From Candidatus Omnitrophota bacterium (GTDB taxonomy: Bacteria > Hinthialibacterota > Hinthialibacteria > Hinthialibacterales > JAKPRU01), in NCBI GenBank assembly GCA_029570205.1, contig JAKQSI010000063.1, positions 1-39,608 on the forward strand: a stretch of 39,608 nt of DNA. The letters run 5' to 3'. Numbering within the stretch: position 1 is the stretch's first letter; every line of letters starts with the position of its first letter. The notes beneath the pieces are model-generated. The model was not told the origin of the DNA. It was given only the letters and a program-made list of their open reading frames with translations, and made no database searches. A program made the translations under genes and the position numbers. This document shows positions 81 to 29,116 of the stretch, in pieces.

Positions 81-310
81 ACCCGGGCGGTCTTTGCAGC
101 CTTCCTCCGGCGGGGCCGGTAATCGGGTAAAGAAGGCGTCATCGGACACACCGCAGACGAAGGCGTGAAGATACGCACAACCCCCTCTCTGTCCCCCCGA
201 ACTTTGGGGAAGAGGGTTCCTCCCCCGAAGATCGCGGGAGGCCAGGTGGGGGTTGACCGTATAGCGCAAAACTCCTCGGCGTGATGGTTGCGACCGAGCT
301 TTCTTAAAAG
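81..310. other. Intergenic region with a palindromic repeat copy
   Basis: This 230-bp non-coding gap separates the fragment at the window edge from the GT9 gene. It contains a degenerate copy of a dispersed hairpin repeat at 179-218, preceded by a small hairpin (GCGT/ACGC around 145-158). I found no convincing promoter. A TTGACC at 253-258 has no matching -10. The overlapping minus-strand frame here is low-complexity and unlike a protein. Confidence 0.5.
179..218. repeat. Dispersed hairpin repeat, copy 1 (degenerate)
   Basis: The outer arms AACCC (179-183) and GGGTT (214-218) enclose a C-rich arm and a G-rich arm (TTTGGGGAAGAG). The order of blocks (AACCCCCTCT, TGT, CCCCCC, then TTGGGG and AGAGGGT) matches copy 3 at 28587-28625. 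The stem is less perfect here. It is taken as the weakest of three family members in the window. Confidence 0.5.
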
Positions 311-24553: not shown

Positions 24554-25069
24554 ATGTTGAAGGCCATCATTGAAGTCGCCAAAGGAATGGGGCTGACATT
24601 TCAGCACCTGCTCCGCAAGCCTACCACGTTTGATTATCCCGACGAAAAGCGGCCGCAATCGCCCCGATTCCGGGGTGTGCACCGTCTACAGCGTCACCCG
24701 GACGGGCTGGAGCGTTGTGTCGGTTGTGGCCTGTGCAGCGTTGTCTGTCCGACAGGCGCGATCTACCTGGAAGCCGCCGAGAACGATCCGCAACACCCCG
24801 TCTCCCATGGCGAACGACACGCGCGACATTACCAGATCGACATGATCCGGTGCATCTTTTGTGGGTTCTGTGAGGAGGCTTGCCCGGAGGATGCGGTTAT
24901 TCTCGGCGAGGAATGGGAGATCGCCGATACGGATCGGAACGTTTTCATTTACTGTAAGGATCGCCTGCTTATTCCTATGGAGCATAAGGATTGCTTCCGC
25001 TCCGGCATGTCCTGGCCGTCCAGATCGGATCTATTCGAACAGGCGATAAAAGATTGGCATCGGGGCTGA
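24554..25069 (+). CDS. nuoI: NADH-quinone oxidoreductase subunit I (two 4Fe-4S clusters)
   Basis: A 171-residue NuoI-type ferredoxin. Two full 4Fe-4S motifs are seen: CVGCGLCSVVCP (Cys55, 58, 61, 65) and CIFCGFCEEACP (Cys100, 103, 106, 110), with the family spacing and the YQIDMIRCIF segment. The N-terminal amphipathic helix (KGMGLTFQHLLRKPTT) is that of NuoI. It carries electrons toward the N2 cluster in the peripheral arm of complex I. No other nuo gene is in the window, so complex I genes are scattered or this copy serves another oxidoreductase. Confidence 0.88.
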   Translation: MLKAIIEVAKGMGLTFQHLLRKPTTFDYPDEKRPQSPRFRGVHRLQRHPDGLERCVGCGLCSVVCPTGAIYLEAAENDPQHPVSHGERHARHYQIDMIRCIFCGFCEEACPEDAVILGEEWEIADTDRNVFIYCKDRLLIPMEHKDCFRSGMSWPSRSDLFEQAIKDWHRG

Positions 25070-25085: not shown

Positions 25086-25169
25086 CTGTCTCCCCCAAGT
25101 TTGGGCGTCGTCCTGTCGAAGGGGGAGATACAGATCCGGTTGATATTACTGGAGTTATCAACCGGATCT
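25086..25169 (-). repeat. Dispersed two-hairpin repeat, copy 2
   Basis: Hairpin B has arms CTGTCTCCCCC (25086-25096) and GGGGGAGATACAG (25121-25133) with an enlarged loop. Hairpin A is a perfect 14-bp stem: AGATCCGGTTGATA (25132-25145) with TATCAACCGGATCT (25156-25169) and a 10-nt loop. Read on the minus strand, the order GGTTGATAA, TCAACC, CTGTATCTCCCCC matches copy 3 at 28565-28625 block for block. Hairpin A, 16 bp after hairpin B's first arm ends at the loop, could also help end the nuoI transcript. Confidence 0.7.
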
Positions 25170-27254: not shown

Positions 27255-28472
27255 ATGTCGAATCAAACAGCGAGAATCATTGTCTTCGCGATGATCTTCC
27301 TATCATCCACTGCGACGGTATCCTATGCGCAAATTGTCGACTTGGTGGATGGAAGAACGGATGTAGATCTTGTCTCTTATGTCGAGCTGGACTCCGCTTC
27401 CGGTTCTGTAAGCGCGATCCAGAAGATGGATTTAAAAGCCGTATTTTGGACTGGAGATGGGAGTAGTTCAATCAATGGAGATGGGACAGTCCTTTTCACG
27501 AATCGAAAATTGATTCGGCAGGGAGCAGATGGCCTGGAATTGATCAACGTGCCGGATGCGGATAAGAAATCCTTTTTCGGCTATCCCCGTCTTGACCGGT
27601 CCGGCGGCGTCCTTATGTACACATTGCGAGAGAGAAAGCCTGAAACGGATGAGGAACCGCAGACATTTCCGCAATGGATAAACTCCATCGTTATGTTTGA
27701 TACACTTGCTGCTGAAATCATCGGCCGTTATGCTGTCCCGGAAGATTACTTTGATGTGCTTCTGTCATTTGACATTTCCGATGGTGCGGAAACTTCCGTC
27801 TATTCCTATCTCGCACCAACAGGGGGTAAGAAGGCATTCCTTCTTGAACGGAGCAGGACCGTATTCGGGGAGCCTACCCAGGTGGGAGAAGCCGCGATGT
27901 TCGTTCTGTCTTCTTCCGGAAACCGCCTGCTTTCGCTGATGTGCGAAGGAAGGGGTGAGGAAGTAACATGGCATTTATCTATCATGAAAAAGGCCGATCT
28001 CGGCTGGAGCGAACCAACCCGTATTGAGTTGCCCGGATTGACCCCTTCCGGATTGTATGATGCCGCCAATAATGGGAAAACGCTTCTGGTCAACATCGAA
28101 GAGAGAGGGTTGGCGTTGGTACATGAAACACCCGATGGGTGGTCGGAGCCGGAATACCTGGGATACCAGCTGGACCACCATCCACTAAGCAATTATGTTC
28201 GTATTCAAATGTCAGAAGACGGATCGGTTATCGCTGTAAGTTCCGCGCGTCTTCCTGTCGTTGATCCCCGTTCACCGGCACTGGATATCTATGATCTCTA
28301 CGTGTTTCTGAGGAGAGAGCCAGGGATTTGGGAAAAGACGCAGGTCAATCCGCCGGAGTACCCGCCATTCAAGGGAGATTTCTTGCTGAGTCAGAACGGC
28401 CGGATGCTGTATTGGGTTCCGGAGACACCACGAACATCCATAACAAACCCGGACTGGACGCTGCATCGGTAG
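27255..28472 (+). CDS. Secreted beta-propeller-like protein of unknown function
   Basis: A 405-residue exported protein. A signal peptide covers about residues 1-26 (IIVFAMIFLSSTATVSYA), with a likely cut before QIVDLV. The body shows repeated strand patterns with DGSSSINGDGTVLFT, YPRLDRSGGVLMYT, LSSSGNRLLSLMCE, AANNGKTLLVNI, MSEDGSVIAVSS and LSQNGRMLYWV. These are TolB/WD40-like propeller blades of the kind that open with D/N-G-x-x-L. No catalytic motif is seen. The start at 27255 has GGGAGAAGGA immediately upstream. It follows the interrupted gene by 57 bp and was probably cotranscribed with it from the promoter at 25235. Base composition is less GC-rich than the ribosomal genes. Confidence 0.7.
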   Translation: MSNQTARIIVFAMIFLSSTATVSYAQIVDLVDGRTDVDLVSYVELDSASGSVSAIQKMDLKAVFWTGDGSSSINGDGTVLFTNRKLIRQGADGLELINVPDADKKSFFGYPRLDRSGGVLMYTLRERKPETDEEPQTFPQWINSIVMFDTLAAEIIGRYAVPEDYFDVLLSFDISDGAETSVYSYLAPTGGKKAFLLERSRTVFGEPTQVGEAAMFVLSSSGNRLLSLMCEGRGEEVTWHLSIMKKADLGWSEPTRIELPGLTPSGLYDAANNGKTLLVNIEERGLALVHETPDGWSEPEYLGYQLDHHPLSNYVRIQMSEDGSVIAVSSARLPVVDPRSPALDIYDLYVFLRREPGIWEKTQVNPPEYPPFKGDFLLSQNGRMLYWVPETPRTSITNPDWTLHR

Positions 28473-28564
28473 TTTGTTCGCCCAAGGCCATCGGACAAGG
28501 AAGCGCGAAGGTGCTGAATCTGTTCCGAGACTTGCCTTTCCCAGGAATGGGGAGATCAGGGCGA

Positions 28565-28625
28565 GGTTGATAAGTTCAATAAATTCAACCCCCTCTGTAT
28601 CTCCCCCAATCTTGGGGGAGAGGGT
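28565..28625 (+). repeat. Dispersed two-hairpin repeat, copy 3
   Basis: Hairpin A is GGTTGA (28565-28570) / TCAACC (28585-28590). Hairpin B is TCTCCCCCAA / TTGGGGGAGA (28600-28621), a perfect 10-bp stem on a 2-nt loop, flanked by ACCC and GGGT. It sits between the convergent propeller and STAS genes and may also serve as a terminator for both. The rest of the 242-bp gap (28473-28714) shows nothing else. Confidence 0.7.
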
Positions 28626-28714: not shown

Positions 28715-29116
28715 TCACCCCTCTCCGCCCGTCTCAATCTCATGCCCGGAGATTGGTTCGTAGGGAATCACCAGGTCGAATACGGCGTAGAGTTTCGCGA
28801 TTTCGAAAACATCGGCGAGTCCGCGATGGATAATGACCAGCATTCTCCTGCCGTTGGCCTCCGTGATCTGTTTGCAGCGCAGAAGGGCACCGATACCTGT
28901 GCTGTTGATGAACTCGACCCTGGTCAAATCGACCACCAGCGTTTCCTGTCCGGTTGTCTGGCCGCACTCTCCCCATGGTTTCCCGGCGATCTGACTCAGT
29001 TCATTCGCCAATGCGGTCGCGGTGGCATTATCGAAAACACCCTGGATATTGAAACGGAAACTCGGCGCGGATTCGGTTCGGAATGAGTGTGTACTGTCCA
29101 TTGATTTAATATCCAT
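28715..29116 (-). CDS. STAS-domain anti-sigma factor antagonist-like protein
   Basis: A 133-residue protein with one STAS domain. The core is LVVDLTRVEFINSTGIGALL, where Ser72-Thr73 sits at the phosphorylation position of SpoIIAA-like antagonists, followed by LVIIHRGLADVFEIAKLYAVF. Such proteins bind an anti-sigma kinase in partner-switching regulation. No kinase, phosphatase or sigma gene is nearby, so the partner is elsewhere. A loop inserted before the phosphorylation strand (WGECGQTTGQE) is longer than usual. Its start overlaps the end of the phosphoesterase gene by 11 bp, so the two are translated together. Confidence 0.85.
   Translation of the reverse strand: MDIKSMDSTHSFRTESAPSFRFNIQGVFDNATATALANELSQIAGKPWGECGQTTGQETLVVDLTRVEFINSTGIGALLRCKQITEANGRRMLVIIHRGLADVFEIAKLYAVFDLVIPYEPISGHEIETGGEG

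Follow-up and report, generated by a model that had tools for sequence, protein, structure and literature searches.

The 39,608-nucleotide contig analysed here (hereafter the window), from a MAG of Candidatus Omnitrophota, carries three similar palindromic stretches outside genes, and these raise the question of whether they are copies of a mobile repeat or instances of a module that serves gene ends. An earlier note had described them as a two-hairpin repeat and had offered both readings. Confinement to the three copies, which the earlier note had named as refuting its reading, was not what we found, and the repeat is far commoner than chance would give: copy 3, used as a BLAST query, gave 49 matches in the host genome (G000; 4.39 Mb, 131 contigs), the core TCAACCCCCTCTGTATCTCCCCCAATCTTTGGGGGAGAGG of what we call the X unit occurs at ~45 places in that genome, and a general unit pattern, TCAACCCC-N3..16-CTCCCC-N2..12-GGGGAG, matched 35 times vs. 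0 for the reversed-pattern control. For the X pattern, reversal gives no usable control, since its backward reading is similar to a variant of the family. Related units number about 45–170 per congener (172 unit-pattern matches in G001), are also present in other genera of the same order (>200 units in G005) and find matches in a distant genome (G031) as well; these counts, and the absences reported below, are approximate, because all genomes are fragmented MAGs and genes were called with a home-made codon model. A scan of the GTDB collection returned the exact X pattern from only two Candidatus Omnitrophota MAGs, which look like the congeners G001 and G002. Rfam gave no match above the gathering score anywhere in the window, and we found no paper in the open-access literature that links Omnitrophota to such repeats.

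Each unit is a hairpin with a ~7-nt bulge and one fixed end, TCAAC. In a conservation profile from an alignment of 29 copies, conservation sets in sharply at TCAACC (~1.9 bits per position vs. 0.5 just upstream) and extends over a core of ~37 nt, in which TCTGTAT is largely unpaired; the conserved stretch covers TCTGTATC, mostly outside the main stem. The hairpins of the copies and of the consensus fold better than shuffled sequences (z −2.3 to −3.6), and covariation in the stem did not rise above that of shuffled partners, with few compensatory changes. The TCAAC end is common to three unit types, X (CTCTGTATCTCCCCC...), Z (CACCTGACCTCCCCCGATCTTCGGGGGAGG) and Y (ACCCTGCACCCTCCCCAATCTTGGGGAGGG), and units were found as singles, as head-to-head dimers and as tail-to-tail dimers. 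The head-to-head spacer is near-constant, at 16–18 nt, or ~30–36 nt in one genus (G004); in G005 a large part of the units stand in head-to-head dimers with 18-nt spacing (~26 of the 28 listed pairs, counted from coordinates). Imperfect palindromes of 20–50 nt in many dispersed copies, paired in opposite orientation at a conserved spacing, are what is broadly expected of REP-like elements.

This dimer organisation also changes how the two hairpins are to be read. The GGTTGA…TCAACC palindrome, taken in the earlier note for the first hairpin of a bipartite unit, is the junction of a head-to-head dimer (Y', a 16-nt spacer, X), that is, of two palindromic units, and we rejected the single two-hairpin unit on this ground. 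The junction half GGTTGATAAGT...TCAACC occurs 8 times in the host genome vs. 0 for the control, intact Y'-spacer-X dimers are present at three loci (L030, L086 and L133), and Y' remnants were detected at copy 3, L005, L016 and L030.

Within the window, copies 2 and 3 share the order that had been proposed for them: GGTTGATAA, a spacer, TCAACC, CTGTATCTCCCCC and a G-rich arm. Copy 3 consists of an X unit with its TCAAC end, short outer stem, TCTGTAT bulge and CTCCCCC/GGGGGAG hairpin (28,585–28,625, plus strand), of the head-to-head junction GGTTG-16 nt-CAACC formerly counted as a hairpin (28,565–28,590, plus strand), and of a degraded inverted Y unit (28,537–28,570, minus strand; score 30, p~0.001 vs. 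random 46-mers of its own genome). Copy 2 has an X unit whose loop carries an 18-nt insert (25,086–25,143, minus strand) and a junction CCGGTTGATA...TATCAACCGG with a 10-bp stem (25,136–25,165, minus strand); a Y remnant was not detectable there (p=0.76). These two copies do lie beside gene ends, as had been stated for all three, copy 2 at 17 bp from the 3' end of a 4Fe-4S ferredoxin-type gene (24,554–25,069, plus strand) and copy 3 between the 3' ends of a gene ending at 28,472 and a convergent STAS-domain gene (28,715–29,116, minus strand). Copy 1 does not, as it lies upstream of the gene at 311–1,231, near the contig start. It holds the second half only, as had been observed; it is, however, no shortened form of copies 2 and 3 and belongs to a different, longer composite. 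There, an X-like unit (ACAACCCCCTCTCTGTCCCCCC...; 177–218, plus strand) and a Z unit (217–256, minus strand) form a tail-to-tail X/Z' dimer inside a ~200-nt element (104–306, ends approximate, plus strand) with partly inverted-repeat arms, AAAGAAGGC...GCTTTCTTA, which we aligned from nine places in two genomes. Bases 1–305 of the window are 98% identical to bases 1–305 of another contig, C95, so that a longer repeat stands at two contig starts; the identity stops where the composite element stops.

We scored positions relative to genes in a 0.82-Mb sample of the host genome, annotated with the home-made caller and partly picked for contigs that hold copies, which should leave the orientation counts unaffected. 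In this sample 34 of 44 units are intergenic. Among the 33 intergenic units with two neighbours, 25 face the 3' end of the gene that follows (0.41 being the expected share, p=5e-5) and 12 occupy convergent gaps (p=0.003); both biases are likewise broadly REP-like.

About ten X sites lie in frame within ORFs. Their hosts, by Pfam, include MutL, HypF, a UvrD/PD-DEXK helicase-nuclease, BpsA and glycosyltransferases, with 3 of 10 unit-bearing ORFs giving no Pfam match, and by the domain coordinates the units fall outside the best domain matches, either between them or next to them. Orthologues differ in length by a multiple of three at 10 of 11 intragenic vs. 6 of 16 intergenic sites (Fisher p=0.008), and orthologous proteins from congeners align across the unit sites in one frame, some of these alignments containing one stop, internal or terminal. 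One mutL orthologue, with a length difference of −40, breaks the in-frame rule as computed; this is probably a fault of flank extraction, because the G002 protein can be aligned across the site with no stop. The in-frame copies may be mere survivors of random insertion. In the MutL linker (orthologues L004, L107 and L247), two X units lie ~92 bp apart in G000, and three units are present in G001.

Comparison among congeners indicates how the units change. A G002 orthologue was recovered for 18 copies, 16 of which are common to G000 and G002 (~95% identity in aligned stretches), and most copies comparable with G001 are also shared (~84% identity). Where copies differ, it is mostly by a local gain or loss of 33, 39 or ~101 bp. 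At the hypF and UvrD-type sites, G001 has a palindrome of another family, W (CTCACCCCAACCCTCTCCC...GGGAGAG), in place of X, and in one spacer Y stands in place of X. Identity of the intergenic core to G002 is 0.87 vs. 0.94 for its flanks, and that of coding copies 0.94 vs. 0.91; the intergenic core value for G001, 0.61, is lowered because units have been replaced. Because the G000 copies were selected for resemblance to the consensus, identity in the core should be inflated, and the low values are therefore not an effect of selection; that the core is no better conserved than the flanks speaks against a conserved role as a terminator. A clean single-unit insertion with a target-site duplication was sought among the orthologous loci, whose flanks are too diverged, and none was clear.

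The host genome encodes three Y1_Tnp genes (L061, L062 and L063), two of which are flanked by REP arrays of their own (GTAGGACAGGCCTCCGTGCCTGTC at L062; GGAGTGCGGGAGCGTCAGCTCCCGCC at L063). L062 (G000:C89:46098-46418), a RAYT-like Y1 gene inside a large GTAGGACAGGCCTCCGTGCCTGTC array in which, within 2.7 kb, 20-mers reach a count of 19, has the look of a typical GTAG REPtron and a likely counterpart in G002 (L152). L063 (G000:C48:81488-81766) lies among GCGGGAGCGTCAGCTCCCGC arrays, some with GGAG before them. The third gene, L061 (G000:C51:63620-63952), keeps company with other inverted repeats: repeated palindromes CGTCCGAAGGACGGACGACA stand upstream of it and, further upstream past a tRNA-like stretch, GGGTTGATTTCATTAGACTTA resembles the spacer of X dimers. 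The RAYT partner with matching ends that the earlier note had proposed to look for was not found; in the incomplete MAGs scanned (G000, G002, G003, G004, G005, G012 and G031), none of the Y1_Tnp loci is flanked by X, Y or Z units, and G001 gave no Y1_Tnp match.

These observations bear on three rival explanations. A functional 3'-end module, that is, a terminator or mRNA-stabilising hairpin selected at many gene ends, would fit both the bias towards gene 3' ends and convergent gaps and the folding of the hairpins. However, no intrinsic terminator, a GC-rich hairpin followed by a T-run, was called at the two copies to which this applies, 2 and 3, the intergenic core shows no sign of constraint relative to its flanks, a good number of copies sit inside ORFs, and units have been swapped between families, and we consider the shared terminator module of the earlier note unlikely. 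Similarly improbable is a MITE derived from an insertion sequence of the DDE type and bounded by terminal inverted repeats: X units are for the most part 40-nt singles or dimers whose outer ends are not constant, and no target-site duplication was seen at the diverged orthologous loci compared, although the ~200-nt element around copy 1 does have partly inverted arms and many of its G001 copies stand at contig ends.

A classical REP family mobilised by a RAYT/IS200 enzyme, its cognate transposase since lost or not assembled, is a lesser but real possibility. It shares the architecture of fixed end, bulged hairpin and dimers, RAYT-like Y1 genes do exist in the host genome, two with flanking REP arrays, and loss of REPtrons has been described (PMC3733652); yet no Y1_Tnp gene flanked by TCAAC units was found in the seven genomes scanned, G001 combines its many unit matches with no detected Y1_Tnp gene, and the GTAG end is absent. 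We favour instead the reading of the TCAAC units as an old, mostly static, REP-like non-autonomous repeat, and we hold it probable that these palindromes make up a REP-like family within one order of the Omnitrophota, dispersed as non-autonomous hairpin elements. The non-autonomous mobile repeat in REP style that had been suggested from the window is thus supported by copy number, both types of dimer, location at gene ends and intragenic copies.

Among described systems, the family works like REP/BIME elements and shares the intragenic habit of the Rickettsia palindromic element (RPE). As in GTAG REPs, BIMEs and REPINs, the units are short, often bulged palindromes with one fixed end, form both head-to-head and tail-to-tail dimers and occur genome-wide near gene 3' ends with occasional intragenic copies (PMC3733652, PMC8266576; for REPINs, PMC3116915), but they start with TCAAC rather than having GTAG or a related tetranucleotide beside the palindrome, and neither an adjacent RAYT gene nor, in these incomplete MAGs, a RAYT gene flanked by the same repeats was found. 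CGTC-tagged REPs and RPEs likewise place in-frame copies inside protein genes, here conserved ones, and CGTC repeats have been reported without associated transposase genes (PMC3733652, PMC10969869); the Omnitrophota units, however, have no CGTC end, differ in sequence and phylum, and are mostly intergenic. Because neither of the tags nor the RAYT link was found, we do not file the family with the GTAG or CGTC members. REP-like families that have no conserved terminal motif exist in other bacteria (PMC3733652), whereas here different unit types, from several genera of a single order, have the TCAAC end in common. The 2013 study of GTAG and CGTC elements (PMC3733652) reported intragenic REPs, with repair genes among the genes that hold them, and, for recB in two Xanthomonas species, REPs that differ from each other at roughly coinciding sites, so the intragenic and site-sharing habits are already known from other families.

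We reasoned that the units would have dispersed as non-autonomous single-strand hairpin elements, moved by a nuclease acting in trans, of the HUH type or other, for which no gene was found. Inheritance would now be mainly vertical, units being gained, lost or replaced locally, perhaps through slippage or recombination between hairpins, and units would persist at sites where they do no harm, such as behind gene ends or, if in frame, in linkers between domains; an RNA-hairpin effect, if any, would be secondary. A bolder version, which we put forward tentatively and regard as rather doubtful, is that TCAAC marks a third end-tagged REP-like class in Omnitrophota, spread by an enzyme other than Y1/RAYT and repeatedly adding hairpin-encoded peptides (e.g. 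SPPKIGGDTEGVE in MutL) to the linkers of repair and metabolic enzymes. In either form, the family brings a REP-like repeat with an end tag of its own to a phylum for which we found none described. It also provides three related genomes in which corresponding protein linkers, MutL's included, are seen filled by a hairpin, empty, or filled anew from a different hairpin family. With such a set one can ask how RPE-like peptides enter proteins, and by which enzyme repeats lacking a RAYT partner are moved.

Two further observations concern palindromes beyond the genus. At L072, a locus in a genome outside the genus, a similarly built unit, TCACCCCCCTTTGTATTTCCCCCCGTCAAGGGGGAAAG, suggests wider relatives; L073, unlike L072, is an unrelated-looking locus. 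The W palindrome (CTCACCCC...CTCTCCC...GGGAGAG) occurs across the class (G000, G001, G003, G007, G011, G012, G042 and others) and outside the phylum, with up to 173 matches, in G001.
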